This document shows positions 714 to 30,937 of a DNA stretch of 35,461 nucleotides, piece by piece (within the stretch, counting starts at the first letter, position 1; the number at the start of each line of letters is the position of its first letter). The translations under genes and the position numbers were made by a program. This DNA comes from a virus, in the IMG/VR virus record IMGVR_UViG_3300035698_028134, positions 1 to 35,461 of that record; one strand, written 5' to 3'. The notes under the pieces are model-generated. The model did not search any database. It was not told the origin of the DNA and saw only the letters and a list, made by a program, of their open reading frames with translations.

Positions 714-1227
714 TATCTAAAAATTTAATAATATCACCGTCCAAATGTCTTTTTAAATTATATTCCTCATCTAAATATGAAATAACACTGACCCATCCAG
801 GGAATTTTTCAGAACCAAAATGTATATGTTCCCATTCAGGTTCAAATAAACCCGTGTGAACATTATCATCTATAAGGAAATCTCCCCTCACTACAGTTTT
901 ATCTGGAGCTAACATTAATTTTTTGCACATATCTATACCAAGATACTTCTCAACCCACACTCTCTTCTCTGTGTAATTAAGGGGGTTTCTGAATGATGGT
1001 CTTGTCAATAAAAAAACATTGAAATATTTATTAAGAAATCGCATTGCCTCTATTGCACCATAAATTGGTTCTAAATTTTCAAAAAATTTATATTGAGCCT
1101 GAGGATAGGCCTGTTCTGGGTATAGAGATATTGCTTCCCTGTATGCCTTGTAATAATTAGCAACGACACCATCCATGTCTACATAAATTGTTGCTTCTTT
1201 ATCAAAATACTCTTTTAAATCCTGCAT
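706..1227 (-). CDS. HAD-family 5'(3')-deoxyribonucleotidase-like protein
   Basis: Starting at the ATG at 1227 gives 173 residues. HAD motif I is VDMDGVVANY (about residues 16-25), with the nucleophile and acid aspartates; motif II is LLTRPS; the later lysine and acidic pair lie in DKTVVRGDFLIDDN. This order is typical of the NT5C cytosolic deoxyribonucleotidase family, which dephosphorylates nucleoside monophosphates, so it may adjust nucleotide pools during replication. The frame stays open upstream to 1335, but that part overlaps the dnaE 3' end and does not look like HAD sequence. The chosen start overlaps dnaE by 26 bases. The exact substrate cannot be read from sequence. Confidence 0.8.
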   Translation of the reverse strand: MQDLKEYFDKEATIYVDMDGVVANYYKAYREAISLYPEQAYPQAQYKFFENLEPIYGAIEAMRFLNKYFNVFLLTRPSFRNPLNYTEKRVWVEKYLGIDMCKKLMLAPDKTVVRGDFLIDDNVHTGLFEPEWEHIHFGSEKFPGWVSVISYLDEEYNLKRHLDGDIIKFLDND

Positions 1228-2272
1228 TTTTTTTAAAATTTGTAAATCCTTTTTCACTTTTAACAAAACTCGAAACATAAACTCCACCCTTTTCAAGATG
1301 GGGTCTAATTTTCTGATACATTCCACCAAATACACGAAGTCTCATGGTGTTTATACCATCCCCCACTTTCAATTCAGCATATTTACTTCCCTGATTCCTG
1401 CCACTAGAAACTGTCATTTCTCTTACTGATTCCAAGACAAAAAAGTAATAGTCATCATTATCAAAGTTTATTATACTCTCGATAACTCTTTTTGCCTTTT
1501 TTGCTAACATTTCTTTTATGCTTGCCATTTCCTTGATCTTCTCCAAATTAAACCCAGAAACCTCTACAAATTCCATCTGTATCTGTTTCTCAGTAGTTGT
1601 ATGATGTTGTGAAGTATCCAACTTTGATATCAGAGATTCATCATTCATATCAAAGAGTGCCATTTGACCCTGTGAACTTTTCTTCTTTTTCTTTTTATTT
1701 CGTAGTTCAACAAGGTACTCTCTAGACTCTGACCAGTCATCAAATACACCTGCTTTTATACAAGCCTCATATGATGTTTTATTAAACTTAGAGAGGGGGA
1801 GATCAAAAAATTCTAATAAATTTACTACATCAAATGTTTTATTAATTTTTTCTAATTCACTCATCAGTTCGGCATATGCTTTGTCTCCAAAACCACTTAT
1901 GGCAGAAAATCCCATAGAGACTTCTTTTTCTCCTGTCATGGTCCATTTCCAACCTGATTTTCTGGAGGGGGGTTTAATTTCTATTCCTTTTGAAATTGCG
2001 GATGAAATTGTCCCCGTTACCCATTTCTCTTCCTTTTCCTTTCCACCACTTGTTTTTGGATGATTCAAAAGAGAAGCATAAAATTCAGTTGGATAATAAT
2101 GTTTTAAATATAAAGTTTGAGCAGCTAAGTATGAATATGAAAGTGAATGACTGTTTGAAACACATATATCATTTGCGTAATAATTATGAAATTTTGAATC
2201 TATCTCTAAATCGTAAGTCTCAATCTCTCCTATTTCTTGTAATTCTATTATTTCTTCAAACTCTTCAAACAT
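1202..2272 (-). CDS. dnaE: DNA polymerase III alpha, fragment 3 of 3 (C-intein B + C-terminal extein)
   Basis: Residues 1-40 are a C-terminal split-intein half ending ICVSN, followed by +1 Ser and an extein starting SHSLSYSYLAAQTLYLK. The extein continues the DnaE motif GYSFNK-SHS, the equivalent of GFNKSHSAAY in bacterial alpha subunits. It holds the end of the fingers region, a helix-hairpin-helix part, a beta-clamp-binding-like pentapeptide QMALF (residues 203-207, after a lysine run) and a C-terminal OB-fold-like segment. The extein is 316 residues. The ATG at 2272 lies within the 3' end of the preceding endonuclease gene (25-base overlap). It works only after trans-splicing to fragment 2. 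Confidence 0.93.
   Translation of the reverse strand: MFEEFEEIIELQEIGEIETYDLEIDSKFHNYYANDICVSNSHSLSYSYLAAQTLYLKHYYPTEFYASLLNHPKTSGGKEKEEKWVTGTISSAISKGIEIKPPSRKSGWKWTMTGEKEVSMGFSAISGFGDKAYAELMSELEKINKTFDVVNLLEFFDLPLSKFNKTSYEACIKAGVFDDWSESREYLVELRNKKKKKKSSQGQMALFDMNDESLISKLDTSQHHTTTEKQIQMEFVEVSGFNLEKIKEMASIKEMLAKKAKRVIESIINFDNDDYYFFVLESVREMTVSSGRNQGSKYAELKVGDGINTMRLRVFGGMYQKIRPHLEKGGVYVSSFVKSEKGFTNFKKNAGFKRVF
2153..2272 (-). other. Split intein B, C-terminal half (40 aa)
   Basis: This stretch encodes the intein C-half that opens DnaE fragment 3. It contains a block F-like segment (YDLEIDSKFHNYYA) and the C-terminal ICVSN; the last residue is the catalytic Asn, the usual penultimate His is Ser, and the +1 extein residue is Ser. 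It is strongly acidic: I count 12 Asp/Glu against one Lys. Its partner is the basic N-half at 3248-3529. Confidence 0.92.
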
Positions 2273-3198
2273 TTTTTAATATTTTCAATATTATTAATTA
2301 TATCATATTCCCACAATTCAATTAACTTATATTCATTTTTATCCTCTACAAACTTACGCTTTCTTTTATCCCTTTCAAAATTATTTTTTTGCATTTTATT
2401 TTTTGGAATTGCATGACGAGTTTTTGGATTGCAATGAAAATAATCTCCTTGAACCTCTATTAAATAATTTTCCATTTTAAAATCAAATACAAAATTTCCA
2501 TATCTAAATTCTTCTTGAAAAAACTTATCTTTTTCTCCAAAAATTTCCTCTAATACTTCTCTTGTTTTTCTATGTGGTAAACTATTTGTTTGAGGAAAAC
2601 AGCCTTTCTTAAAACGTAAAATTGTTTTTTCTCTCATTATTTGTTTTGATTCTTCAGAATGCTTACACCCCGTATGACCATGAATTTTCCTAATACTAGC
2701 GCTCTCAGACATTTTTTTCAATGTATACTCTGAAAACTCCATACCCTTTCTATCCTCAGATATTTTTTTAACTATATCATTAGTTTCTTTTGTCAAACCA
2801 TCATTCCAAGCTTTTAATCCATACATAGGATTTCTTTTTCCCTTTCGATCAACTTTCATTTTTTCAACATGATTTTTAAAATCATCATTATTTTCTGAGA
2901 TATGTTTTGTCATTTTTTCCCAACTGCAAGAACTACTATATTTTCCAAATAATATAGAGCCCGCAAGTTTATAGCTAACCAAATCATTTGTTACTGGACA
3001 TCTTGGAATATCATAAAATTCATCTAAAATTTCTAATATATTTTTATTATATTTTTTCTTATAATAAAAGTCTGCTATTTGTGAATTATAGTAACTTTTT
3101 CTTTTTATTGTTTTTTTAAGCTCTTCCTTTATTTTTGACATAGGAATTTCTTTTTTAGTAATGATATCTTTTTTAAAGTCAATTTTTATTTTTTTCAT
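2248..3198 (-). CDS. Vsr-like homing endonuclease between dnaE fragments 2 and 3
   Basis: A 316-residue free-standing endonuclease. The middle carries NUMOD3-like DNA-binding motifs (KGKRNPMYGLKAWNDG, residues about 118-133). The C-terminal quarter has the Vsr-like nuclease pattern FVFDFKMENYLIEVQGDYFHCN followed by a basic helix and KLIELWEYDI, as in the EDxHD homing endonucleases. It sits exactly in the gap between the N- and C-halves of split intein B, so its likely target is the uninterrupted dnaE of related phages. Its stop (2248) lies inside the next dnaE fragment, so the C-intein may be translationally coupled to it. The ATG at 3198 directly abuts a hairpin. Confidence 0.87.
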   Translation of the reverse strand: MKKIKIDFKKDIITKKEIPMSKIKEELKKTIKRKSYYNSQIADFYYKKKYNKNILEILDEFYDIPRCPVTNDLVSYKLAGSILFGKYSSSCSWEKMTKHISENNDDFKNHVEKMKVDRKGKRNPMYGLKAWNDGLTKETNDIVKKISEDRKGMEFSEYTLKKMSESASIRKIHGHTGCKHSEESKQIMREKTILRFKKGCFPQTNSLPHRKTREVLEEIFGEKDKFFQEEFRYGNFVFDFKMENYLIEVQGDYFHCNPKTRHAIPKNKMQKNNFERDKRKRKFVEDKNEYKLIELWEYDIINNIENIKKCLKSLKK

Positions 3199-3234
3199 AT
3201 TTCACTCTTTAGTTTGTAATAAATAGAGTGAAAT
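3199..3234 (-). promoter_or_regulatory. Start-adjacent hairpin with the late-promoter-like motif at its loop
   Basis: On the coding strand a perfect 10-bp stem (ATTTCACTCT / AGAGTGAAAT) ends at the base before the endonuclease ATG. The 16-base loop plus the end of the 5' arm contain CTATTTATTA (3217-3226), a variant of the CTATTTATAA motif. A read-through transcript could fold and hide the start; a transcript starting downstream of the motif would lack the 5' arm. Confidence 0.65.
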
Positions 3235-3244
3235 TTATTAAAAC

Positions 3245-4852
3245 TTACTTTATTTTAATTTTTAATTTATTTTTAATAATTTCTTCTAAAGTTTTCATAC
3301 CAAATTCAGTCATAATTTTATGATCTTTTATGCATTCTAATATTTTTCCTGATTTTGTTTTTATTTTAAAAATTTTCTTTTTACCATTTTTATGAATATC
3401 CTTTACAACATTAAACTCATCTTTTTTAGTTATTGGATTAAATCCTAGAATTTTTTCTCCTATATTTACATCTAACATACTAATTTCTCCTCTATTCTCC
3501 GTTATAATTTTATGATTTTTGCTTAAACATTTATTAAATGAATATCCCAAATACTTAATTAACCATTCTTTTATTTTATTGAGATCAAATTCATTAAATC
3601 CATTATTTAAAGCACCCGTCGTAAACATTCCCCAGTATTTCTGGAAATCTCTATACTTCTTACTATATTTTTCTTTATCTGTTAAAATATCACCATTTAA
3701 TTCTTTTTCAATCATCTTCCCAGCTTTGTCCATAGCTCTTCGTAGCATATCACCATCTCCAAGACTCATACCGCCAATTTCTTTGCCTATAAACATAAGT
3801 TGCTCCTGAAAAATTAAAACCCCCTTAGATTCTCTTAAAATGGGTTCTAGAGCAATATGAGCATATTCTATGTTGTCAGGTTCAAATTTATTTTTTACAT
3901 ATTCCTCGTGAGCCTTGATTCCCATAGGACCTGGACGATAAAGAGCATTTGCAGCAACAAGTTCTGTAAAGTCCTCTGTTTGCATGTTTCTTATCAACCC
4001 ATTCATTCCAGGACTCTCAAACTGAAATATACCTTGATTCATTCCGAGTCTAAGTTCTGCATATAAATTTGGGTCACTTAAATCTACATAATCAATTTTT
4101 TCTTGTATATTAATCCCTTTAGTTTTCTTGATGAGTTTTACGGCATCCTTTATTACATTTAACGTTTCAAGTTTAAGGCGATCAAGTTTTAATATTCCAA
4201 GAGTTGATAAATCCTTTCCTGATTTGTCAGACTCCTGAAAAGCTGTTACAATACTTTTTTGTTTTGGGATTATGTTTGTGGGAATATGCTCCCAACAAGC
4301 TGAGGGGGTTATTACAACTCCAGCTGCATGTTGCCCAATTCCTCTTATTTGCCCTTGTAGCTTAAGTGTTTGTTTTAAAATAAGTTCATTGTCTGGACTA
4401 GTCAACCAATTTCTTACTTTATCTGAACATTCTGCACTTTGCGGATAATCCCTAAACCAGGTTGCCAGGTTATAATCTACTTTTAACCAATCTGGCATCT
4501 CATTAGTTACCATTGATACACCTGATTCATAACTTGTATCCCCACCATAAGCCCTTACAACATCTTTTAAACATCCTTTTTCACTAAATGTAGAAAAAGT
4601 TGAGACTGCCAAAATTCTCTCTTTACCATATTTTTGAATTAAAAAATCGTTTGTTATATGGTCAGTGTCTTTTTCAAAATCTATGTCAAGATCAGGAGGT
4701 GAATTGTGAACTAAAATGCTGATTTCTAAGTTATTACAAGAATTAGTTTTATTAGCTCTAGCAAAAAATAAATTATCCTTATCAAAAGATAAATCATAAA
4801 CCATTCCTTTTTCCTTTATTTTTTTTATTTTTTTTATCTTAGAAATTTTCAT
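3245..4852 (-). CDS. dnaE: DNA polymerase III alpha, fragment 2 of 3 (C-intein A + palm/thumb/fingers + N-intein B)
   Basis: Residues 1-50 are C-intein A (ending LVHN), followed by +1 Ser and extein SPPDLDIDFEKD, the PDxDxDF catalytic motif with two metal-binding aspartates. The third catalytic Asp is in GILKLDRLKLETLNVI. Further DnaE landmarks are GQIRGIGQHAAGVVI, GIFQFESPGM, ALYRPGPM and VLIFQEQLM. The 391-residue extein ends IKYLGYSFNK, where N-intein B (94 aa, starting CLSKNHKIIT) takes over to the stop. The fragment therefore carries an intein half at each end and must be joined twice. Its start overlaps the preceding endonuclease gene by 14 bases. Confidence 0.94.
   Translation of the reverse strand: MKISKIKKIKKIKEKGMVYDLSFDKDNLFFARANKTNSCNNLEISILVHNSPPDLDIDFEKDTDHITNDFLIQKYGKERILAVSTFSTFSEKGCLKDVVRAYGGDTSYESGVSMVTNEMPDWLKVDYNLATWFRDYPQSAECSDKVRNWLTSPDNELILKQTLKLQGQIRGIGQHAAGVVITPSACWEHIPTNIIPKQKSIVTAFQESDKSGKDLSTLGILKLDRLKLETLNVIKDAVKLIKKTKGINIQEKIDYVDLSDPNLYAELRLGMNQGIFQFESPGMNGLIRNMQTEDFTELVAANALYRPGPMGIKAHEEYVKNKFEPDNIEYAHIALEPILRESKGVLIFQEQLMFIGKEIGGMSLGDGDMLRRAMDKAGKMIEKELNGDILTDKEKYSKKYRDFQKYWGMFTTGALNNGFNEFDLNKIKEWLIKYLGYSFNKCLSKNHKIITENRGEISMLDVNIGEKILGFNPITKKDEFNVVKDIHKNGKKKIFKIKTKSGKILECIKDHKIMTEFGMKTLEEIIKNKLKIKIK
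3248..3529 (-). other. Split intein B, N-terminal half (94 aa)
   Basis: It begins with the nucleophile Cys (TGT at 3527-3529), directly after extein GYSFNK. A block A-like segment (CLSKNHKIITENRGE) and a block B-like segment (LECIKDHKIM, with the histidine) are visible. It ends at a normal stop codon. It is strongly basic: I count 23 Lys/Arg against 12 Asp/Glu, with the tail KNKLKIKIK. The matching C-half is acidic. Confidence 0.92.
4703..4852 (-). other. Split intein A, C-terminal half (50 aa)
   Basis: It opens DnaE fragment 2 with a lysine-rich head (MKISKIKKIKKIKEKG), then a block F-like stretch (VYDLSFDKDNLFFA) and the C-terminal ILVHN with canonical His-Asn; the +1 extein residue is Ser. 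I count 11 Lys/Arg against 5 Asp/Glu. It pairs with the acidic N-half at 5956-6237. Confidence 0.93.
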
Positions 4853-5918
4853 TTTTTAATTCTTCTTTAATAAAACTTAAGACAACCTCTTTATTTTCTT
4901 TCCAATCTTTTTCCCAAATCTCTATCAACTTACAATTTAATATATTGATTATTTCATTTTTTCTTTTTAAATCTTCTTTCCAAATTTCTTTAGCACTCTT
5001 GTTTTTATTTTTATGATAAAAATTATGATCATAAATTTCTGAATTACAATGCCAATAATCTCCCATTACTTCTATTACTAAATTATATTTTTCATTATAA
5101 TAATCTAATTTATAAAACCTTTTATCGTCCACTGGAACTACCTTTTGTCCTTTTTTAGATGTTTTATAATAAGCATGCTTTTCTTCTAAAATATTATTTA
5201 CCTCATTTACTATTTCTGTTTCTAATTTTGAACTTTCATTAAAATTTGAATTTAATTTATATACATTATCAAGCTGCCATTCATAATCAAAAAATAAATT
5301 TTCAACTCCATATTTATTAAACATAGTTGTGGTAACCGCAGAATAATGACCTCCTCTACATAAAAACCAATCATGCCCATATCTTTCTTTTATTGTATTA
5401 GATATTTTTTCCTTAATTTTTTTGCACTGTATAGGAGAAGTTAGCCCAGATGTTCCTAATGATTTATTTAATGAAAATTCATATTTTTCCCTATATTCTT
5501 TAGTGTTATAATAAAAAGATTTATATTCTTTTTCATCTATTAAATATGCATTTGTAAAAAACTTTAAACCCGTTCTGGTTGGATGTAAGCTTTGTATGTC
5601 TACTCTATCATAAAACTTATTATATATTTCAACACTAGATTGAGTTAAAGAAAACAATCCATTTTCTGTTTTTAATTTTACAATTTTTCTCCCACTGTGT
5701 TTTGTATATATAACATCTTTTATTTTTCCTTTTTCTTCTTTGTTTACAAAACACTTTTTGCCTTTTAAATTTTCTAAAGAAACATTTAATTCTAATTTAT
5801 ATGGCCACTTCTCTTTTTCTTTTAAAGTTGACTTTTTAAAATCAAAAAACTCTCTTAAAACTTTATCAAGTTCTTTTTTGTTTTCAAATTTTCTTTTTAA
5901 TAAATCTTCTTTTTTCAT
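4839..5918 (-). CDS. Vsr-like homing endonuclease between dnaE fragments 1 and 2
   Basis: A 359-residue protein from the ATG at 5918; a TTG two codons earlier is a weaker alternative. The C-terminal third has the Vsr-like signature YNLVIEVMGDYWHCN, then a long basic helix and LIEIWEKDW, the EDxHD homing endonuclease layout also seen in the 2248-3198 gene. The rest is Lys/Glu-rich with a possible KGKIKDV-type DNA-binding segment and is otherwise unassigned. It occupies the gap of split intein A, so it probably cuts intact dnaE at the catalytic PDxDxDF site. Its 3' end overlaps the next dnaE fragment by 14 bases. Confidence 0.85.
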   Translation of the reverse strand: MKKEDLLKRKFENKKELDKVLREFFDFKKSTLKEKEKWPYKLELNVSLENLKGKKCFVNKEEKGKIKDVIYTKHSGRKIVKLKTENGLFSLTQSSVEIYNKFYDRVDIQSLHPTRTGLKFFTNAYLIDEKEYKSFYYNTKEYREKYEFSLNKSLGTSGLTSPIQCKKIKEKISNTIKERYGHDWFLCRGGHYSAVTTTMFNKYGVENLFFDYEWQLDNVYKLNSNFNESSKLETEIVNEVNNILEEKHAYYKTSKKGQKVVPVDDKRFYKLDYYNEKYNLVIEVMGDYWHCNSEIYDHNFYHKNKNKSAKEIWKEDLKRKNEIINILNCKLIEIWEKDWKENKEVVLSFIKEELKNENF

Positions 5919-5923
5919 ACACA

Positions 5924-5969
5924 ATCTTTATCTATAAATATAGAAAAAAACTTTAAAAAGTATAAAGAT
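5924..5969 (-). promoter_or_regulatory. Hairpin upstream of endonuclease start, late-promoter-like motif in the loop
   Basis: On the coding strand ATCTTTAT (5969-5962, inside the last codons of dnaE fragment 1) pairs with ATAAAGAT (5931-5924), five bases before the ATG. The roughly 30-base loop contains CTATATTTATAG, including the TATTTATA motif (motif copy at 5932-5941). It has the same topology as the hairpin at 3199-3234, with unrelated stem sequence. Confidence 0.55.
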
Positions 5970-7611
5970 AATCTGTTTCTTTCAAATCTTTAATTTCTAT
6001 TTCTATTCTTTTATTATTTCTTAAAACTGGAACAGTGTGCTCTCCTGTCAATTTAATTATAGCTCCATTTTCAGTTTCTACTTCATAAACAATCTCATCT
6101 TTCTTCAGCTCTCTTTCATGTTTTTGGACTAAATTCCCCAAACCATGTTCTGTTTGCACAAAATCTCCTACCTCAACATTAACTATATTTTTATAACTTC
6201 CATTTTTCATTAAAACTTCACAATCACTTGTTAAACAATTTCTTGTTGGATTAAGAAATCTTTCGAAATATAAATTATGTAAAACTGGGTCTATTTTTGT
6301 TATGTCAAGACACCAAGTTAATAGACAACCACAGGCAGACCCCCTTCCTGGCCCAACGTCATGGCCCTTTGATCTATAATCTTTGATTATTTCCCAGTTA
6401 ACCATAAAATAGTCAAGCATTTTCTTATCATCAATAACTTTCAGTTCATATTCCAGCCGATTTACATATTCTGCAATCTTTACCTCAGTTATTTCTACTA
6501 TTTTATTTTCTTTGTACCTATTTAACTTTTGCTTTAGTTTGGCAAAAGCAAGTTTTGTAATAATTTCTTTTGTGTCCTTTGTTTTAAAATATCCAGAAAC
6601 ATCTTCTGTAACCTCATATCTTGGATATTTTTCTTTTCCTATTTCAAATTCAAAATTACATTTATCAACAATTTTTAATGTATTCTTTAAACAAAAATCA
6701 ACAAAGTCTTCTTGGTAATTAAATTTAAATTGTGTATTAAATCTATGGAAATCTAATGAGTTTGAATAGAATAAACTTCTAACATGGAGTTTAAAACTTT
6801 TACCAACTACACTTTTATAATTTATAGCAATAAGAACATCTTGTAGTTCTGCGTCTTCTGGGTAAGCATAGTGCACATCACTTGTTATTATTGGCATTAC
6901 ACTATGCTTATTTGACATTTGAATTAACCAATCATTATATTTCTTTTGAATTTCTAATTCATTTAATTGCAACTCAACTGCGAAATTTTCCCCAAACTCT
7001 TTTTTATATCTTAGAAAAAGTTTCTCAGCCTTATCATATTCATTTTCTAAAACAAATTTTGCAAATGAACTTCCAACACACGCAGTACAAATAAACAACC
7101 CCTCTTTATGTTCAAAAAGCCATTTTGTCTTAATTCTACCTCTTTCATAAAAACCTTCTGAATATGATAAATAAAGCAATTTATTTAAGTTTTCATATCC
7201 TTTTTGGTTCATTGCAAATACAATGAGGTGAGAATTTTTTCCCTCCTCCTTTTGAAATTCTTTTTCTCCTATGTTATCATTTATATAGAGTTCTGAACCA
7301 ATAAGCGGTTTGATACCTGCCTCTTTGCACTTCTGAAAAAATTCAAAAGTTCCCGACATTGTACCATGATCTGTTATTGCTATTGCTGGATGACCATACT
7401 CTTTCGCAAGTTTGATGTAATTATCTATATCACCACAACCATCAAGTATACTATGAAATGTATGAAGATGAAGGTGGGCCATTGGAAAACCAACATCCTT
7501 TTCTTCTCTTTTTATTTCTTTATGAATTACAACACCATCCTCCGTTGCAGTCCTAGCTGTATTTTTCTTTATAACTAGTCTGTCTAGATTTATTTTTTCA
7601 GGTTCATTCAT
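5953..7611 (-). CDS. dnaE: DNA polymerase III alpha, fragment 1 of 3 (PHP + start of palm + N-intein A)
   Basis: A 552-residue protein. After an N-terminal extension of about 43 residues comes a PHP domain with apparently intact metal ligands: HLHLHT (46-51), ITDHGT (D81, H82) and a later SDVHYAYPED. This is unlike the degenerate PHP of E. coli DnaE and may provide proofreading. The palm begins at VGPGRGSACG; extein 1 ends FERFLNPTRN at residue 458, where N-intein A starts. A bacterial alpha subunit would continue straight into PDxDxDF. The gene follows a terminator, so it probably has its own promoter, which I could not identify; no TATTTATA motif is present upstream, unlike the virion genes. 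Confidence 0.95.
   Translation of the reverse strand: MNEPEKINLDRLVIKKNTARTATEDGVVIHKEIKREEKDVGFPMAHLHLHTFHSILDGCGDIDNYIKLAKEYGHPAIAITDHGTMSGTFEFFQKCKEAGIKPLIGSELYINDNIGEKEFQKEEGKNSHLIVFAMNQKGYENLNKLLYLSYSEGFYERGRIKTKWLFEHKEGLFICTACVGSSFAKFVLENEYDKAEKLFLRYKKEFGENFAVELQLNELEIQKKYNDWLIQMSNKHSVMPIITSDVHYAYPEDAELQDVLIAINYKSVVGKSFKLHVRSLFYSNSLDFHRFNTQFKFNYQEDFVDFCLKNTLKIVDKCNFEFEIGKEKYPRYEVTEDVSGYFKTKDTKEIITKLAFAKLKQKLNRYKENKIVEITEVKIAEYVNRLEYELKVIDDKKMLDYFMVNWEIIKDYRSKGHDVGPGRGSACGCLLTWCLDITKIDPVLHNLYFERFLNPTRNCLTSDCEVLMKNGSYKNIVNVEVGDFVQTEHGLGNLVQKHERELKKDEIVYEVETENGAIIKLTGEHTVPVLRNNKRIEIEIKDLKETDYLYTF
5956..6237 (-). other. Split intein A, N-terminal half (94 aa)
   Basis: It starts with Cys (TGT at 6235-6237) straight after extein LNPTRN. 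Block A is CLTSDCEVLMKNGSYK; block B is IKLTGEHTVPV with the TxxH histidine. It ends at a stop codon after 94 residues. I count 18 Asp/Glu against 12 Lys/Arg (net acidic). Splicing to the half at 4703-4852 restores LNPTRN-SPPDLDIDF. Confidence 0.94.
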
Positions 7612-7636
7612 AATGCGAAATTACAAAAAAAAACAT

Positions 7637-7665
7637 TAAAAAAAAAGTCGGGATTATAAAATCCC
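7637..7665 (-). terminator. Rho-independent terminator after the portal/small-gene unit
   Basis: On the minus strand GGGATT-TTAT-AATCCC, with possible extra flanking pairs, is followed by a run of about nine T (complement of 7638-7646). It lies between the small gene (stop 7673) and dnaE fragment 1 (start 7611), separating late morphogenesis genes from the polymerase unit. Confidence 0.85.
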
Positions 7666-7672
7666 AACATTT

Positions 7673-7888
7673 CTATGAATAATCGCTTCTATAATCTTGC
7701 CGTTGCTTTTTTATAGAAGACTTTAAAGCTACCCCTTTTTTCTGAATTTCAAAACTTTTATTCCTAGCTTTTATGCCATGAAATCGTTTTTTACCTTTTG
7801 AAAGATATTCAAATAAATCCTCTCTGAATTCTTGACACAATTTTTTATATTCCTTCCAGGTTTCTAAATTATTATAGTCGTCATTCAT
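7673..7888 (-). CDS. Small basic protein of unknown function
   Basis: A 71-residue protein starting at the ATG at 7888 (a GTG one codon earlier is possible). The start lies within the last codons of the portal gene, 8-base overlap, so translation is probably coupled. An acidic/aromatic N-terminus (NDDYNNLETWKEYKKLCQEF) leads into a Lys/Arg-rich C-terminal half ending QRQDYRSDYS; it looks mostly helical. No family recognised. In T4, gene 20 is followed by small prohead core genes, so a capsid-assembly role is possible from position only. A strong terminator follows. Confidence 0.6.
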   Translation of the reverse strand: MNDDYNNLETWKEYKKLCQEFREDLFEYLSKGKKRFHGIKARNKSFEIQKKGVALKSSIKKQRQDYRSDYS

Positions 7889-10800
7889 CACCTTTCTCCT
7901 CTATAAGCTTATCTATTCCAGCAAATAAATCACTAGTTTTCTGCAGCATAGATTCATTGTTTTCGAGAAGATTCTTCTTTACAACCTCGGCCTCTTTTTC
8001 CATTTTTTCAACAGTAGTGTCAATACCCTCAAGTTTTAGCTGCATTTTTCTCATCAACCTCTTTGTATCTCCTTTTAGTTTATTGCTACCTTTTATTATC
8101 ATACTTTCCCTCTTTGTTTGAACACTTTCATTTTCTTCAAGCAAGTTATCAATTAAAAAGTCGATCTTTTTATCGTTTTCTTTTAGGACTTTTTTGTTTT
8201 CAGCTAATTCCTCTCCTTCTGGGGGTACTTCCTCTGGGGCACCATCTTCTTCACCAGGAACTTCTCCCCCCATATCCATTCCGCCACCAATATCACTGAA
8301 GCCTCCGCCTCCGCCGCCACCCATGTCGCCTGCGCCTTCTTCACCTCCGCCTTCCATGCCTTGAGCAGCCACCCGTGCAGCGGCCTCAGGGTCTTCAAAC
8401 CTTTTGTCGATTTCATCAAATAATCCAATTTTCTTATAAGTCTCAACTGCACTTTCAATTTCTGCAAATAATTTCTTCTCAACTTTCTTTTGTTTAAGAA
8501 TATGTTTTATTTCATGCTTTGAAAAACCAAGTATATTTTCCATGGCCCAGGTATATGATGTTGGTGATGTCGCCTCTGCACTGAAAAATTCTTTAAAAAC
8601 CTCAAGTCTCGACTTCATAGTTTCGAGCTTAAGAAGTTCTTGTTGTGTTGATGGATTTGTCAGTGTGAGTTTAAAATTATCCATTGCATCTTCAAATCCA
8701 AGGAAGTATAAATGAACATTTGCTATTCTTCTAAGTTCAAGAAGAATTGCCTCTTGGATTGAATTAATTGTACGTGAAAATCTAAGGTCAGTTTGTGACA
8801 ATGTACTTCCACCTGGAAGAGCCTCTGCAAAATTCAAATATGTCTTAGGAACCTGAATCGCTGCAAATAACTTATTTTGAAGATATTCTATATCTTGAAT
8901 ATCTCCTAAATTACTGTTTTTCAGGAAGTTACCAGCTTTTGTAGCAAAAGTATGGTAATTATGATACAACTCATTTCCGTCTACTGTTATAGTTCCAGTG
9001 TCTTGAATTTCTCCTTTTTCAATACTAACAATTTTATGATTATAAAATTTATCTACTTCTTTTTTATTTACCTTTTCAATATAATATCTCCAAGCTCTAA
9101 CATTTTTATAACCTAATTTACTAGCGGTAATTTTACACCACTCTCTATAATTTTTAAATCCATGTTTTTTTAACATTTTATCTAAATGATTACGAGTAAA
9201 TTCAACTAGATTAGTCAAAGAACTTCTGATATCCTTATTACTGTCTCTAAATTCTGTCAAAAATTCCTCGGAATTATTTAGTTCATATAATGCTAAGTCT
9301 GCCCTACCAGTTTTTTTAAACATATCAAAAAACATATCATATAAAGTACTTGTAAAATTAATTGTTTGTTCTTTGCTAAATACTTTTTCTTTGTGTCCCT
9401 TAGTTTTCCATTGTTTTTTTGCTATTTCACTTTGCCTTTTTTTATTTTCAGGGGTATTTTTAACAATTTTTAAAGTTTTGCTAGTTTTTTCATAAAATGC
9501 TTTTTTATATTCCTCATTTTCCATTAACTTCTGAAGACTATTATTAGCTCCATTTAAATTTTCTGTTGATTGTTTTGCTCTAGTTTCTTTTTCTTCTAAA
9601 GTGAGGTTTGTTATATAATTGTTAATCCCATTTCGAATTTTTTCTTTATTTAATTCTGCTTTTTCTGGCGTTGACCATAATTCATATCTATGATATCTAT
9701 AATGATCTTTAGAATTCATTAAAAATAAATTATTTGGTAAATTATTAAAACGATCATTATCCATATGGTGAATTGTATTCATTTCTTTTTCCTTATAAAC
9801 ACCCTCAAAAGTATAATATTGTTCTTTGTTATTTTTTTTAATAAAACTATTAACCATTCTATGAGTAAAAACCCATTCTTGTTTTTCAGAATCCCATACA
9901 CGTTCATATGGTTTTGCATATTTTTTATCTAAAATTTTTTCAGTATCACGATAAAATGGCATTAAACTATCGCCAACCACTAAATTTTGAGCTTCAACAA
10001 ATCCCTTTGTTCTATGTACCCACTTATGATCAGGAGTTGTAATTAATTCTTCTCCATTATCTAATGTTATCTTTAATGTCTCAGCATTTTCTCTTGTTTT
10101 TCCTGCCCATGTTATCGTACCTGGAACTACTTTACCAGTATTTGGGTCACAAGAATATACCCATAAGTTTCTATTGCCACTATCCCATTCAGATATAATT
10201 TCACTAAGCTCTAGTGTTCTACCATCTAGTAAGGGTATTTTAGTATCTAATGCAATACATGCACCTGGTAATGTTTCAATCTTAGATGACTTATCACCCC
10301 TTATCGGGATATAGTAATCTTCTGTAACGTTTTTCGGGTCAAATTTATAATTTATATTTCCAGTTCTTTGATCAACAATAGGTTGTTTCTTAAGTGTTTG
10401 TTGTACTTTTGAGACATATGTCTTAACATCTGCATCAGGCAAATTTCCAACTTCAATATAGAATATTCTTCTTTCAGGTGCCCTTGTTATACGATAAACA
10501 AGCATAGCATCCTCGGCCAACTGTAATTGCTTCCACAGTTTTCTTGCAGGGTCAAGCATTGAATTATGCACTACAATACCATTTGCATAAAAATTGTGAT
10601 TCTCATTTTCAACATATATATCAAATGTTTCTGCCTCATCCTCTTGCTTTTCTATTGCTATTAAAGGGGTGATAATAAAATTATCTTCCATTCTTTTTTT
10701 GATATCATGTTTTTTTATCTGTTTTATTTCTGAATCATAAAAATAAATATAATAACTCTTTTTAGTTTTAAATTCTTTACCCCAAATTTCAGTTGTACCC

Positions 10801-13772
10801 CTATCTCTACTGCAAATTTTTCCAACTTTTATACCAAGTCTTTGAAGTAAAATTTTAACATCTTTAATTAAATATTCATTTGCCAATTCTAATGAATATC
10901 TTACGCAATTCCATTTATCTATATTTGTAGAGCCATCTGCATCAATTAAACCATCAATTAAAGCTTTTTGAATATTTTTAGACGCAGTAAAAATCCATTT
11001 TGGTAACCTTTTACTATAAACATTTCCTATAAAACCATTATTTTGTAAAATCTCAGATAACATTTTTGAGTTAACTTTTGCCTGAGAAAATTCTAACAAA
11101 CCTTTTTTATTTTTTGGTCTTACAAATCTAATTTGTTTTCCAGAAAATTTTTCTAATAAATTAATATATTTTTTATTAATCTCGTCATCAACTCCTAATG
11201 CTATATCAACAGAATTATTATTTATCCATCCGTCTCCAAGTAAAAAACCAAATAATCTTGCAAAATCTTCATCAACATATTCTGGAATAAGATCAATATT
11301 ATTTCTATATCCATTAAAATTTTTAGTATCAGTAAATTCTTTATTAATTTTTATATCACTATTTGTAGAAACATTCTTATCAACAACTAATAATTCATTA
11401 ATATTTAGGTCACATACATTTTTATAGCTAAATTTTTCATTATTATAAACTAAAATTTTATGTTCTTTAGATGCCTCTAACTCATGATTTTTTGTTCTTA
11501 ATTTATAAATCTCTTTTTTTCCAGAACATACAACATCTAACACTTTAGTTTTTTCTTTTTTTTGTGTTTCTAAATTAAAAGAATAAATAAAATCTCCCTT
11601 TTGAATATCTTTTATAAATTTAACCCCATCATCCGTTTCAATATAAGTATCATATTTTAAACATCTTCCATAAGGCAATTTCTTTGTATCTTCAAGTAAT
11701 CTAAAATGGGCGATTTGCCATTCTTCAAAATAATCACCAGTTGTTTCCCATCTAAAACGAACAGAACTTGTAGTTCCATCATATCCCTCTTCTCTGTGAG
11801 TTTCTTCCACAGGCAAAGTTTGAAAATCGTAAATTCCAACATCTTTATCAATAACAAGATAAACCATGTAGTCTCCAAATTTTACTAAATCTCTTATCCA
11901 AAGACGAAGATTAAATTCCACCTGAAGAACATTTCTAAATACATCTTCAAGTACTTGCTTAACTCTGTCATTTTCTGAATAAATATCCAATATATTACCT
12001 GTCTCGCCTCTTGTCAAACAATTGTGAGAAATTACTCCTGTACCATTTGATGTTAAAACAGCAAAATTATGAAATTCTCCAACATTAACAAGATCATAAG
12101 TTCTATGTTTTCCATCAAACTCTATTCTTTTAATTTTATGATTTGCTGTTTGTAATAAACCTTCTAAATTTTTGTATCTACTTCTTTTTAAAACAGTTTT
12201 TATTGTGTTTATAGAAATTTCCTCGTCCTCACAAAAATATTTTAAACTCTTATATTTTTTATTTATAAATTTTTGTTTTACATTTTCTAATAAAAATTCA
12301 GAAGAATTATATTGCTTAACAAATTCTTTCCATGTTTTAAAGCCATTGTTATTTAAACAAATTTTAATTTCAGTAAAAGTCCAATTTAATTCATCTGTAA
12401 TTAAAGACATTGAAGTTTGTGTTTCTAAAATTATTCTTCCTAAATATTTTTCACAAACATTTTTAATCAGATTTATATCTAAGTAATCAAAATCTTCTTT
12501 TCTTCTTTTATTTAATAATTTTATTAAATTTCTAAATCCAATTTCTTTATAGGATTTTGATTTATTTAAAATTCTACGTTTTGTTTTTAATAACCGACAA
12601 ACATCATGGATATCAAAAGAACTTTTAAAAGCATTTATTATTTCTTCTTTTGAAAATTCTCTATTAATATTTTTTAAAAATCTTCCATTTTTTTCACCCT
12701 CAATCTTACACCCTTTATTATACATAGGGTTTTTTTCACCAGGATATCCAAATTCTTTTTTTAATTCTTCTTTTGAATAATTTTTATATTTTTTTCTTTG
12801 TCTTTTAGAAATTTTTTCAACCCTATCTTTTCTCCATTCTTCATTACTCCAATAAGGACCATTTTTACTATTTGTTTCTGAAAATATTCTTTTCATTTTA
12901 TCAGAAAATTCTTTATTTTCCCAAAGTTTTTGAATATGTTCTTGATGATATCTTTGGTGTTCAAAAAATTCCATCATTTTTAAATTAGAAGAATTATTAT
13001 TTTTTTTATTAAAATCTTTATGGTGAACTACTCCTTTTTCTTTTGGCCACATATTTCTCTTAACTATTCGATGAGTATACTCCCATTTTCCATTTTCCAA
13101 TAACATTTCATAACCTTTTATTCTATCTTTTTCATCTGAAATTTTAGTATAAAATGGTTCAATTGACATTTCCTTTTTTAGTTCACAAGTTTTAACATAT
13201 TCATTTGTACCTTTTTTAAGCCACAAATGATTTGATGTAGCCTCAATATAAGAATCATCATCAAAAACAATTTTATATACATCTTGTTCACCTTTATAAA
13301 TTACTTTTTCACATATAGCTGGTTCGTATATTTGTTTCTCTGTGTTAAATGAATAAACTTCAAAATTTTTATAATTTTGTTGATATAATTCTTCTATGGT
13401 TTTCTTTTCTCCAGATAGTAAAGGTATTGATACTGAATGTTTTATGCACTCATCTCTAACTATGTTGAGCGCTGTTGCTATCTCTGGAGAATTATCCATA
13501 GCTCTAAAATCTTGATAAGCTGAAATTCTATCAGTATCAAAATAAACAGTTCTTGTATATAAGTCATGAGATATCTTATGAACCTGCCAATCAAGAAAAT
13601 CTTGTTGCATATTTTCTACACCAACCGTCGGGTCCAACTGGGGCATACCCTGCCCTGGCCCAGCGGTACCACCTGCAATACTTGGATTAGGTGCTCTTCT
13701 ATTTCCTTTAATAGCGTTTAATACGCCTGAAAATACACTTTGAGGGTCATTTTGTTGTTTATTATCTGCCAT
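7881..13772 (-). CDS. Portal vertex protein (T4 gp20-like) with three inteins
   Basis: A 1963-residue precursor; removing three inteins leaves about 672 residues. T4 gp20-like extein landmarks are IAHFRLLEDTKKLPYGR, joined to SMLDPARKLWKQLQLAEDAM, then YRITRAPERRIFYIEVGNLP and SNLGDIQDIEYLQNKLF. The portal forms the dodecameric ring at the capsid vertex through which DNA is packaged and to which the tail docks. Beyond the gp20-like core lie a Gly/Glu-rich linker (about residues 1805-1855) and a coiled-coil-like tail (about 1860-1963) ending EEKGDE. A weak motif copy (TATATTTAGT) precedes the start. Intein DNA is visibly more AT-rich than extein DNA. Confidence 0.94.
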   Translation of the reverse strand: MADNKQQNDPQSVFSGVLNAIKGNRRAPNPSIAGGTAGPGQGMPQLDPTVGVENMQQDFLDWQVHKISHDLYTRTVYFDTDRISAYQDFRAMDNSPEIATALNIVRDECIKHSVSIPLLSGEKKTIEELYQQNYKNFEVYSFNTEKQIYEPAICEKVIYKGEQDVYKIVFDDDSYIEATSNHLWLKKGTNEYVKTCELKKEMSIEPFYTKISDEKDRIKGYEMLLENGKWEYTHRIVKRNMWPKEKGVVHHKDFNKKNNNSSNLKMMEFFEHQRYHQEHIQKLWENKEFSDKMKRIFSETNSKNGPYWSNEEWRKDRVEKISKRQRKKYKNYSKEELKKEFGYPGEKNPMYNKGCKIEGEKNGRFLKNINREFSKEEIINAFKSSFDIHDVCRLLKTKRRILNKSKSYKEIGFRNLIKLLNKRRKEDFDYLDINLIKNVCEKYLGRIILETQTSMSLITDELNWTFTEIKICLNNNGFKTWKEFVKQYNSSEFLLENVKQKFINKKYKSLKYFCEDEEISINTIKTVLKRSRYKNLEGLLQTANHKIKRIEFDGKHRTYDLVNVGEFHNFAVLTSNGTGVISHNCLTRGETGNILDIYSENDRVKQVLEDVFRNVLQVEFNLRLWIRDLVKFGDYMVYLVIDKDVGIYDFQTLPVEETHREEGYDGTTSSVRFRWETTGDYFEEWQIAHFRLLEDTKKLPYGRCLKYDTYIETDDGVKFIKDIQKGDFIYSFNLETQKKEKTKVLDVVCSGKKEIYKLRTKNHELEASKEHKILVYNNEKFSYKNVCDLNINELLVVDKNVSTNSDIKINKEFTDTKNFNGYRNNIDLIPEYVDEDFARLFGFLLGDGWINNNSVDIALGVDDEINKKYINLLEKFSGKQIRFVRPKNKKGLLEFSQAKVNSKMLSEILQNNGFIGNVYSKRLPKWIFTASKNIQKALIDGLIDADGSTNIDKWNCVRYSLELANEYLIKDVKILLQRLGIKVGKICSRDRGTTEIWGKEFKTKKSYYIYFYDSEIKQIKKHDIKKRMEDNFIITPLIAIEKQEDEAETFDIYVENENHNFYANGIVVHNSMLDPARKLWKQLQLAEDAMLVYRITRAPERRIFYIEVGNLPDADVKTYVSKVQQTLKKQPIVDQRTGNINYKFDPKNVTEDYYIPIRGDKSSKIETLPGACIALDTKIPLLDGRTLELSEIISEWDSGNRNLWVYSCDPNTGKVVPGTITWAGKTRENAETLKITLDNGEELITTPDHKWVHRTKGFVEAQNLVVGDSLMPFYRDTEKILDKKYAKPYERVWDSEKQEWVFTHRMVNSFIKKNNKEQYYTFEGVYKEKEMNTIHHMDNDRFNNLPNNLFLMNSKDHYRYHRYELWSTPEKAELNKEKIRNGINNYITNLTLEEKETRAKQSTENLNGANNSLQKLMENEEYKKAFYEKTSKTLKIVKNTPENKKRQSEIAKKQWKTKGHKEKVFSKEQTINFTSTLYDMFFDMFKKTGRADLALYELNNSEEFLTEFRDSNKDIRSSLTNLVEFTRNHLDKMLKKHGFKNYREWCKITASKLGYKNVRAWRYYIEKVNKKEVDKFYNHKIVSIEKGEIQDTGTITVDGNELYHNYHTFATKAGNFLKNSNLGDIQDIEYLQNKLFAAIQVPKTYLNFAEALPGGSTLSQTDLRFSRTINSIQEAILLELRRIANVHLYFLGFEDAMDNFKLTLTNPSTQQELLKLETMKSRLEVFKEFFSAEATSPTSYTWAMENILGFSKHEIKHILKQKKVEKKLFAEIESAVETYKKIGLFDEIDKRFEDPEAAARVAAQGMEGGGEEGAGDMGGGGGGGFSDIGGGMDMGGEVPGEEDGAPEEVPPEGEELAENKKVLKENDKKIDFLIDNLLEENESVQTKRESMIIKGSNKLKGDTKRLMRKMQLKLEGIDTTVEKMEKEAEVVKKNLLENNESMLQKTSDLFAGIDKLIEEKGDE
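8916..10259 (-). other. Portal intein 3 (HNH, 448 aa)
   Basis: Residues 1172-1619 of the precursor. It starts CIALDTKIPLLDG after extein KIETLPGA and ends NFLKN before SNLGDIQD, so the +1 residue is Ser and the penultimate position is Lys instead of His. The central domain has an HNH pattern (IHHMDNDRFNNLPNNLFLM, then HYRYHRYE). The C-terminal half has repeated GF/GYKNxRxW modules that may contact DNA. The block B-like segment is LITTPDHKWV. Confidence 0.9.
10563..11663 (-). other. Portal intein 2 (LAGLIDADG, 367 aa)
   Basis: Residues 704-1070. It starts CLKYDTYIETDDG after extein LPYGR and ends GIVVHN before SMLDPARK (+1 Ser), giving the gp20 motif LPYGR-SMLDPARK. Two LAGLIDADG helices are seen, FGFLLGDGWI (about 841-850) and ALIDGLIDADGS (about 937-948), each with its acidic residue, so the nuclease looks intact. 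Block B is LEASKEHKIL. Confidence 0.95.
12021..13448 (-). other. Portal intein 1 (HNH, 476 aa)
   Basis: Residues 109-584. It starts at Cys in CIKHSVSIPLLSG, right after extein ALNIVRDE, and ends GVISHN before CLTRGETGN (+1 Cys). Its N-terminus lines up with portal intein 3 (both IPLL(S/D)G), implying a shared ancestor. It has an HNH domain (VVHHKDFNKKNNNSSNLKMM) and a block B-like segment IEATSNHLWL. The block A start is less typical than in the other inteins. Confidence 0.85.
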
Positions 13773-13785
13773 ATCTTTTGTTTTT

Positions 13786-13795
13786 ACTAAATATA
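13786..13795 (-). promoter_or_regulatory. Weak late-promoter-like motif before portal gene
   Basis: The coding strand reads TATATTTAGT, 13 bases before the portal ATG. It matches the TATTTATA motif in TATTTA only. It sits in the 48-bp gap after the terminase stop. Confidence 0.35.
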
Positions 13796-13820
13796 TTAAA
13801 ATTTAAAATAAATTAAATAG

Positions 13821-16800
13821 TTATCCCATTAACCACCCAATGTCATCATCCTCATCCTCAAATGAGGTTTCTGTAAACAACATAACATTGTCTGCCGCAT
13901 CTTTAGCATTTCTATCAAAAGGAACGCTAGGCTCATCAGAGTTGCTGTAGGCTATGGCATCTATCATACTTCTAAATAAATCTTGAGTTGCCGAGGCATT
14001 TTCATAATCAGTATCCCGTATAAATAAACCAATTGCCAGACTAAGTATTAAGTCATCATTAAATCCCTTCTCTGCTTGAGGTTTTCCACCGATATTTACA
14101 AAGTTTCTTAATTCTGCTAGTGTTTTATCACAATATAATTTAAGAGAACCATCTCTAAGGTTTATACTAAGATTGTTGATTATAAGAGGTCTTGTTTTTT
14201 TATTTGTTTGAAAACCTGGTATATCTTGATTTGTTTTAATTTTATAATCATAAGGCCTAGCAAAAATATCAGCAACTGATTTACAAAAGTGCATTCTTTT
14301 ATAATCCATCTTTCTGTTAAGATCAAGAGTGGTTGCTATTCCATGGTTATTTGCCTCTATTGCCAGATAGGCATAATTATAAATCCTTCCAATTCTATTT
14401 ATTAAAATAGCAAACAGATCGGGGGGGATTTTATCTTGATATACCCCTACCACCTCAAGTTCATCAATATCAATGATATGAAGTGTTGAATAGTCAGTTC
14501 CACTTCCGCTTGCAACATCACCACCTATTATATACTTGTGACCTTTTACAGGTCTCTTAAAAATTTTAAAGGCTGTCTCATGCATCACAAATTCTTCCCC
14601 TGGACCATTTCTAACATCAAAATATACAGCATTCTTTATAATCTCCCTATACTCATCGGTAAGCAGTCTTTGTTCATATTTTCTTATGAGATCACTTTCT
14701 ATGGCTAATCTTTTTGAACCCTCGAATGAAAGGTCGAGTTCCTGAGCAATTGATACAGGGTCATTATGTAATCTTTTACACTCACCATCATACCAGGGGC
14801 TCCAATAATATTTCTCACCATTTATCCTTGTTCTTACCTCCATACCCTCAGATGCAAATGGATTTTGAGTCCAATGAACTTCTGATGTTATAAATTGAGC
14901 CTTTTCTCCGTCTGTCTTTGATTGAACCCATGTTTTGTGATATAGATTACCTGTACCATTAGGCGTTTGATGTCCTAAAACACCATTATATACTACGGAG
15001 TGTGCCCAAAAATCATTTTTATTATTAGGTAAAGAAAAATCATATGTTTCTTTTTCATCAAATTCAATTTTATTTATTTTATTCCATTTTAAATTTTTAT
15101 TTAAAATTTTATTACATATTAAAATATTTTTATCAGATAAATTTTCTTTACATAATTCATATATTCTTAAAAATAATTTTCTACTAATGTGTTTTGTCTT
15201 ATATTCTGTCTTTAAATTTGTTATGCCGTTAACAAAAACTCCATTTTTTTTAAAATAAGAAGTATTATGGCCGCTTTCTTTAATTATATCTTTTATAATA
15301 TTAAGAGAAAATGGGACAATATCATTTGCACTGCTTCTATTTAAATTATATTTTTCTAATATTTTTTTATTATTTTGTTTTCTTTTAAAATTAAACCCCA
15401 CTTTATCATAAAATATTTTAGAGAATTCGGCATTTGCAGAAATTCTAAAATTCAAAGTCTCTTTTTTTACTTTTTTTGTTGGTTTGGTCCATACCTCATA
15501 ATAATCAGTTAAAATCCCAAAATTTAACAATAACATTTTAATTTGTTTTATTAATTTTTTAGAATTCATACCAATACCAATGTATCCTTTATCTTTTCTT
15601 GAATACCCGTCACCATCAAAAATTCCCCTTAAAAGATGTATTATGTTTTCTCTAGACATTTCAAGTAATCTACTTGGTATTTCTTTTTGTTTGGCTTTTT
15701 TTGTAATATCAAATCCTATATATTCTAAAAATTCTATAAAATTTTTTGACCCTATAGAATAATGTAAACCATCATGACAAGAATAGGAAAGGTTATTAGA
15801 AGTTATAGCTTTAGAAACATCATCACCACAAGTTATAGTTACACTCCCACCTATAAAATCACCTTTCTTATTTTTCTTTTTATATACACTTCCCTCTGAA
15901 ATATATAATCCCAAAAGATATGCTATTTCTTTTGTAATTTTTTTAGGAGAAAATTTATTTATAATTTTAGAAGAATTAGTTGGTTTAAAATCTTTAACAT
16001 TATCATTTTTTCCCCACAATTCTTGACCATATTGAATAGATATATAATCATCTTTTTCAAGATCGCCTAATTTATGCCAATCATATTTTCCATTCTTACA
16101 CGCCCATAATTTATGTGTTAATGTACCCTCTATATCTCCATTTGTAGAAAATATTCTTTTTGTTTTGTGATATCCATTATTAAAAAACAATTCACCCTCT
16201 CTACATTTATCTTTTCCTAAAACTTTATATTTTCCTATTTCATATCCTCCTTTTTTTTCTGGTTTTATAAAATTTTTAATTTGTTTTATTCCATTGTTTG
16301 TAAAGACAAATGTATCTTCTGGAACACATGAAATCATTATACACTTACCTTGGGTCATTGAAAGAGCTGTACCAGCTGCTAACCAAATTGCATCAATATC
16401 TTTTATAAATGCAGTTTCATCAAGAACCAACATTGTTGGAGAATCTCCACGACCAGCATTTGGACTACTTGCTTTTGCTTCAGCATATGAATTATTTGAG
16501 AATTGTATTTTCTTTTGATTTTCTGTTGTTATTTCATCAGGTTGTAGCCACTCAGGCGTATGATGTACAAATTGCTTAACGGTTTCTAAAAACCTAACAG
16601 CACCAGCACCATCATTTGCAATGATAAGCACCTTCTGATCGAAACGGAACATTATAGTCCATGCGACATAACCAGCTGTAATTACACTTAATCCAGTATT
16701 ATGAGTTAATAACCCATTTATAAGAAAATTTTCATTTTTTTCTACCGATATGTCATAACATTTTCTTTTAATGGTTTTTTCTATTTTTTTAATAACTGAA

Positions 16801-22743: not shown

Positions 22744-22878
22744 ATGACAAAAACAGTAGTTGTTGAACCTTTTGTCAATTTGAGCCGTAAAACCACTGTA
22801 TTTATATTAGGGATAGCCGACTTATTTAGAGATGTTTTGAGCCGCTATGTGGATTTTTTCACCTTATTTAATACTTAA
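22744..22878 (+). CDS. Possible 44-residue small protein
   Basis: An ATG at 22744 opens a 44-codon frame ending in TAA at 22878, overlapping the endonuclease 3' end on the other strand by 15 bases. The translation contains a hydrophobic stretch TTVFILGIADLFRDVL and ends DFFTLFNT. The DNA is less AT-skewed than nearby spacers and the upstream sequence has GTTTATAATAC. There is no family match I can name and no supporting ribosome-binding signal. It could be chance. Confidence 0.3.
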   Translation: MTKTVVVEPFVNLSRKTTVFILGIADLFRDVLSRYVDFFTLFNT

Positions 22879-24561: not shown

Positions 24562-24580
24562 AATCAATGTAGTAATATTT

Positions 24581-26867: not shown

Positions 26868-26895
26868 AAAAAAGGGGAGAATTTTATTTCTCCTC
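26868..26895 (-). terminator. Terminator overlapping the GIY-YIG stop codon
   Basis: Minus strand GAGGAGAA-ATAAAA-TTCTCCCC (six Watson-Crick pairs plus a wobble) followed by six T. It sits in the 17-bp convergent gap between the secreted-protein gene and the endonuclease gene. Confidence 0.7.
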
Positions 26896-30849: not shown

Positions 30850-30901
30850 TTTAGTCCAATAGGTATCAGTTATAGATATACAAAAATTTTTTAAAATAAA
30901 C

Positions 30902-30937
30902 AAAAAAAGAGGAAAAATTTTCATTCATCCTCTTTTT
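30902..30937 (-). terminator. Terminator after tail sheath gene
   Basis: Ten-base stem AAAAAGAGGA / TCCTCTTTTT with a 14-base loop, followed by further T on the minus strand. It ends the sheath transcript and separates it from the endonuclease gene. Confidence 0.88.

Follow-up and report, generated by a model that had tools for sequence, protein, structure and literature searches.

The 35,461-nucleotide (nt) stretch of viral DNA analysed here (hereafter the window; IMG/VR record IMGVR_UViG_3300035698_028134, positions 1 to 35,461) carries a gene for the replicative polymerase DnaE that is broken twice by split-intein inserts, an architecture that, like the exact empty sites, is borne out base by base. 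Five open reading frames (ORFs) follow one another head to tail on the minus strand, from 7611 to 1202; three encode pieces of DnaE bordered by intein halves, and the two between them encode putative homing endonucleases, here called E1 and E2. We consider it probable, at roughly 86%, that two fractured insertions entered the gene, that two pairs of intein halves splice in trans to give one DnaE of 1165 amino acids (aa), and that the inserts spread by homing. A three-part dnaE with two split inteins and a nuclease in each break had been described in an earlier note on this DNA, and all five ORFs lie where that note placed them; because the same layout recurs in other contigs, it is not a product of chance. 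The parts are the following.

7611-5953, minus strand: ORF encoding the N-terminal piece of DnaE and the N-terminal half of intein A (N-intein A).
6238-7611, minus strand: DnaE N-extein, 458 aa, with the PHP domain and the start of the polymerase core (Pfam PHP, 6.4e-44; DNA_pol3_alpha, 2.3e-27; positions 6-394 of profile PRK06826).
5956-6237, minus strand, stop codon at 5953-5955: N-intein A, 94 aa, with Cys1 and a TGEH (TxxH) motif (Intein_splicing, 8.4e-9; TIGR01445; net charge -6).
4839-5918, minus strand: E1, a putative Vsr-like (EDxHD-type) homing endonuclease of 359 aa with its own start and stop (10 homologues at the same position; fold search; phrog_3339 homing endonuclease, 4.9e-5).
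4852-3245, minus strand: ORF encoding the C-terminal half of intein A (C-intein A), the middle piece of DnaE and N-intein B.
4703-4852, minus strand: C-intein A, 50 aa, ending in His-Asn (46-60% identical to the C-inteins A of the relatives L090, L084 and L128).
3530-4702, minus strand: DnaE middle extein, 391 aa, starting with SPPDLDIDF (catalytic PDxDxDF) and including the fingers domain (DNA_pol3_finger, 1.3e-42; 81% identical to L003).
3248-3529, minus strand, stop codon at 3245-3247: N-intein B, 94 aa, with Cys1 and a block-B motif IKDH, not TxxH (TIGR01445, 1.0e-4; net charge +11; N and C halves joined against gp41-1, 2.5e-8).
2248-3198, minus strand: E2, a putative Vsr-like (EDxHD-type) endonuclease of 316 aa with a weak NUMOD3 match (58% and 51% identical to the L005 and L090 copies at the same site; fold search).
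2272-1202, minus strand: ORF encoding C-intein B and the C-terminal piece of DnaE.
2153-2272, minus strand: C-intein B, 40 aa, ending in Ser-Asn (TIGR01443, 0.014 and 15.6 bits, at the cut-off; 80% identical to the C-intein B of L005).
1205-2152, minus strand, stop codon at 1202-1204: DnaE C-extein, 316 aa, starting with SHSLSY, with the HHH and OB regions (HHH_6, 2.6e-9; positions 751-1046 of profile PRK05673).

When both inserts are removed, the frame of the uninterrupted DnaE of two related phage contigs, L003 and L004, is regained with no gap and no duplication at the junctions, the joined exteins being 77-78% identical to the former and 56% to the latter. Junction A reads LNPTRN/Cys(6237)...His-Asn(4703)/Ser(4702)PPDLDIDF and junction B GYSFNK/Cys(3529)...Ser-Asn(2153)/Ser(2152)HSLSY, exactly as the earlier note had proposed, and the empty sites read NPTRN-SPP and FNK-SHA in L003, and NPTRS-GMP and FNK-SHA in L004. 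Insert A (6237-4703) is 1535 nt long, which is not a multiple of three, and insert B (3529-2153) 1377 nt; the 3' end of E1 overlaps the start of C-intein A by 14 nt, and that of E2 overlaps C-intein B by 25 nt. The exteins do add up to 458 + 391 + 316 = 1165 aa, and their alignment to the DnaE profile, which had been suggested as a check, gives one colinear match to NCBIfam PRK05673 (residues 45-1146 on positions 7-1045 of 1146; 732.6 bits, which falls short of the 1002 bits set for an equivalog and exceeds the TIGR00594 superfamily cut-off) that covers the PHP, NTPase/palm, fingers and HHH regions in order. Taken separately, the three pieces score 331, 274 and 93 bits, and their profile matches abut end to end. 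The catalytic Asp motif is preserved, and in the comparison with L003 the middle extein has a ratio of nonsynonymous to synonymous substitution rates (dN/dS) of 0.12. Break A falls at the catalytic PDxDxDF motif, and break B (FNK/SHS) lies three residues downstream of the cyanobacterial split site (AEY/CFNKSHS), so that both positions agree with those given previously.

Both inteins have Cys1, a C-terminal Asn and Ser+1, the nucleophile set of class 1. Pfam and NCBIfam intein models match their N halves, TIGR01445 does so with the halves joined as well, and once joined, the halves of each intein match inteins of solved structure, the best of phage type being gp41-1 (6qaz, at 2.5e-8 for B and 4.8e-5 for A). 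The TGEH of intein A fits the block-B pattern TxxH, whereas intein B of the window has IKDH, its relatives examined having TLDH, TQDH, TEDH or TMDH. In L027, L029 and L030 the same position holds intein B as one continuous cis intein of 131-133 aa, and therefore the two B halves of the window are parts of one intein. Inteins A and B are only 21% identical in their N halves and 24% in their C halves, and their net charges (N half/C half) are of opposite polarity: -6/+6 for A and +11/-11 for B in the window, -8/+2 and +7/-10 in L090, and -10/+4 and +2/-10 in L128. Since the C half of intein B is strongly negative in the cis copies too, this opposition predates the double split.

The N-terminal parts of E1 and E2 are dissimilar, and a C-terminal domain is common to both (hhalign probability 97.2%). 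Fold searches matched E1 to Vsr (1vsr/1cw0; probability 0.95-0.96, no E below 0.001) and E2 best to I-Bth0305I (3r3p; probability 1.00, TM 0.70 by target, E 0.01), while their long N-terminal parts were unmatched and a sequence-profile search of both against solved structures gave nothing credible. These results lend moderate support to the prediction, made also in the earlier note, that the shared domain is a Vsr/EDxHD-type nuclease. Among named phages, matches to E1 were confined to its C-terminal quarter and found in Prevotella Lak phages, and neither E2 nor N-intein B had a match; a weak match of N-intein A in a Lak phage was set aside, the split intein there being in a helicase-like gene and not in DnaE. 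A helicase-like gene of Prevotella phage Lak-B4 (L293, 6239-9551) is broken by a split intein and a middle ORF, its pieces being fully open only when TAG is read as a residue.

The search of related contigs for intact or singly split dnaE, also suggested earlier, found both, in addition to cis-intein, doubly split and triply split forms. Among 53 non-redundant DnaEs of the clade, drawn from 87 loci, 35 have no insert at any readable site. Site A is split in eleven lineages, all of which have an E1-type nuclease there or what remains of one; splits at site B occur in the window, L005, L090 and L128, besides the three contigs with the cis form, and L020 and L193 bear N-intein B with the site open at the contig end. 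A third site, C (GxxRG/SAAG), is split in L013, L168, L021, L020 and L128 and occupied in cis in L029. The L090 group, seven near-identical contigs unrelated to that of the window and with exteins 45-56% identical, shows the same double split with E1- and E2-type nucleases in matching places, and L128 (the same record as L179; locus 3300-8430) is split at all three sites, hence into four polypeptides. The second of these has 165 aa, only 34 of them extein residues between two intein halves; the L128 nucleases are truncated or frameshifted and the intein halves intact. At site B, even the distant DnaEs L298 and L299 (26-28% identity) are interrupted by a split intein accompanied by an E2 homologue, and the contigs with matching split architectures come from several different metagenomes.

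This distribution bears on mobility. L003, the sister of the window, is empty at all three sites, multi-split lineages stand in separate parts of the extein tree, and the minimum number of changes on that tree is 10 for site A, 6 for B and 5 for C, a count blind to gain versus loss. Of 9167 positions compared between L020 and L021, 6 are different, and 4 of these fall within the 10 bp that immediately precede the B insert of L020, as homing co-conversion would leave them, so that the cluster is a candidate signal of this process. L193 is near-identical to the L090 group and is without 1011 bp including E1, with both halves of intein A retained. Intein halves mostly show dN/dS of 0.05-0.16, with synonymous divergence often near saturation, indicating purifying selection, and N-intein A remains at 0.06-0.07 in comparisons with L128, despite the decayed nucleases of that contig. 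Thus, the inserts recur, and nucleases have been lost while inteins were retained under purifying selection.

From these data we infer the following mechanism. Two unrelated site-specific fractured insertions would have invaded dnaE, each a pair of intein halves (about 94 + 40-50 aa) with a free-standing Vsr-like gene in the slot of the homing endonuclease. The three DnaE pieces would be translated separately from an operon-like cluster, the two halves of intein A pairing with each other and likewise those of intein B, and each pair would carry out class 1 trans-splicing through Cys1, Ser+1 and the C-terminal Asn, so that a single polymerase of 1165 aa results. The role of E1 and E2 would be to cleave dnaE alleles without inteins, at the empty sites or close to them, and the inserts would spread as a consequence. 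In the middle piece a C-intein precedes the extein and an N-intein follows it, the layout from which cyclic proteins are made, and cross-reaction of A with B must therefore be avoided: it would cyclise the middle piece, and splicing of N-intein A with C-intein B would leave the polymerase without its catalytic core. That the two inteins are so dissimilar and oppositely charged offers a plausible reason why they do not cross-react, and the charge polarity may help to avoid mispairing. The earlier note had further held that the two trans-splicing events must be ordered, but nothing in the sequence demands this, given that two orthogonal pairs can react either way.

Several points weigh against this reading. 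Splicing, orthogonality and homing activity are read from sequence; the IKDH of N-intein B may reflect a defect or slower splicing, a tolerated change, or a base or sequencing error; and the fold matches of E1 and E2 have weak E-values and come from models of moderate to low confidence (low for E2). Inteins A and C of L128 share the same charge polarity, and charge is therefore not the sole pairing code. The C-intein A of L128 evolves faster (dN/dS 0.43-0.69), and the co-conversion signal of L020 could come from an assembly chimera, since that contig ends inside the insert.

It might be argued that the three DnaE pieces act as a non-covalent complex in which the intein halves are inert remnants, a possibility that the missing block-B Thr of intein B would suit. 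Unspliced split phage enzymes that function do have a precedent in nrdA of Aeromonas phage Aeh1, a gene likewise broken by that of a homing nuclease (mobE); however, nrdA functions without splicing (PMC3653736) and contains no intein, unlike the dnaE of the window, where both inteins keep their nucleophiles, junction residues and fold in independent lineages and purifying selection acts on the halves also where the nucleases have decayed. The catalytic PDxDxDF region is also an unlikely place for a non-covalent break, and a piece with 34 extein residues, as in L128, would hardly act alone, which makes a complex of this kind unlikely. We regard as quite improbable that dnaE is a decaying pseudogene gathering selfish insertions while another polymerase replicates the genome. 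The window is indeed crowded with homing nucleases, and a DNA polymerase A family protein is encoded in some relatives' contigs, including L128, so that DnaE may not be the only polymerase there; no second DnaE was found in relatives' contigs of 141 kb, 95 kb and 92 kb, which may be incomplete. Nevertheless, all three exteins are open and align end to end with intact DnaE, the low dN/dS of the middle extein and the conserved catalytic motif speak for function, and the doubly split L092 and L194 contigs gave no match to polymerase A or B.

As the contigs are single ones of metagenomic origin, and L206 has an apparent in-frame stop without an intein, it had to be considered as well that the gene is an ordinary one with contiguous inteins, altered by misassembly or frameshift errors, but recurrence of the same split architectures across different metagenomes, and the fact that each nuclease gene has its own start and stop and runs into the beginning of the C-intein, make this highly improbable. 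Removal of the inserts as RNA introns is scarcely credible: group I introns are frequent in phage genes with free-standing homing nucleases (PMC12363816), yet no Rfam intron family was detected in the window or the 6.7-kb locus, either at gathering thresholds or at E up to 1, both inserts encode intein halves in frame with the exteins, and intein B occurs in cis in relatives. The reading of two split inteins that trans-splice a single polymerase accommodates these observations best.

Fractured genes, in which split inteins go together with Vsr-like (EDxHD) endonucleases, were reportedly described by Dassa and colleagues in 2009, with one break per gene in the cases given. The dnaE of the window resembles them in having intein halves on separate ORFs, a free-standing Vsr-like nuclease ORF between them, a phage replication gene as host and intact homologues with empty sites (L003, L004 and many others), and differs in that distinct split inteins interrupt the same gene twice (three times in L128). 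A split intein with an intervening nuclease is of a known kind, and the apparent novelty is a gene broken twice or thrice. The earlier suggestion that the double break was new stands in so far as our full-text literature search, with Dassa et al. (2009) outside its reach, found no protein assembled in nature by two or three trans-splicing reactions, but the break is not unique to this contig, as the L090 group and L128 make clear.

Other systems share part of these features. The cyanobacterial split DnaE intein (Ssp/Npu DnaE) interrupts DnaE at nearly the same place with a canonical N/C split, but it is only 28% (N) and 26% (C) identical to intein B, indicating no close relationship, and its polarity is the reverse (Npu -11/+3); the window, in contrast, has a phage DnaE with the nuclease still present and a second break at the catalytic motif. 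The gp41-1 split intein, from a cyanophage-like helicase, is the closest phage-type solved structure for both A and B, with a different host gene and insertion sites. Jug phages have split polymerases interrupted by endonucleases (PMC12363816). Trans-splicing of three polypeptides with two orthogonal split inteins is known as laboratory design (PMC12707363; for dystrophin, PMC11271493), whereas the present system is natural and mobile.

On balance, we lean towards the view that phages of this clade make DnaE from up to four polypeptides by up to three orthogonal trans-splicing reactions, an arrangement that would have arisen repeatedly by homing, persisted after endonuclease decay and escaped mispairing partly through the charge polarity of A and B. 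If splicing works in this way, these would be the first natural three- and four-polypeptide spliced proteins known to us, the intein sets would be naturally co-evolved orthogonal ones useful for multi-fragment protein assembly, and a replicative polymerase would have become dependent on several selfish elements at once. Because one gene family spans the empty site, the cis intein, the split with nuclease, the split without it and multiple splits, the origin of split inteins and the failure of split genes to rejoin become directly testable questions.

Among candidates examined and rejected, L206 had been scored as split at site A, but the site is empty and there is merely a stop without an intein (near 8001-8300, about 100 codons downstream of site A in the DnaE frame; a nonsense mutation or a base error). 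A scan of genome contigs for a close host or prophage copy gave only bacterial DnaE at about 30% identity, with actinobacteria dominating because of the search patterns used. Rossellomorea phage phiT1 has two annotated dnaE ORFs but no visible intein.

Further variation was seen within the loci of relatives. The site C split encloses a third, different nuclease family in L013 (6728-7789) and L168 (6764-7810), the two being 34% identical. A shared 74-aa ORF follows N-intein B, before or instead of E2, in L020 (9449-9673) and L128 (6932-7156), and a 620-aa ORF (4886-6748) adjoins the E1 homologue inside the site A break of L010. An apparent N-terminal DnaQ-like exonuclease domain is fused to DnaE in L010, L020, L022, L029, L083, L084, L088 and L090 and is absent from the window and L003.

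Elsewhere in the window, the portal protein (1963 aa) and the terminase large subunit (1372 aa), encoded at 7881-17939 on the minus strand, are enlarged by contiguous inteins, apparently three and two, which carry HNH and LAGLIDADG nucleases, bringing the total for these 35 kb to about seven inteins. Free-standing nucleases are encoded at 22864-24567, 26884-27669 and 29794-30924, all on the minus strand, two of DUF7487 type (one with an EDxHD-like region) and one of GIY-YIG/NUMOD3 type. Finally, positions 1-138 consist of two tandem 69-nt copies, 99% identical, inside an ORF at the contig start.

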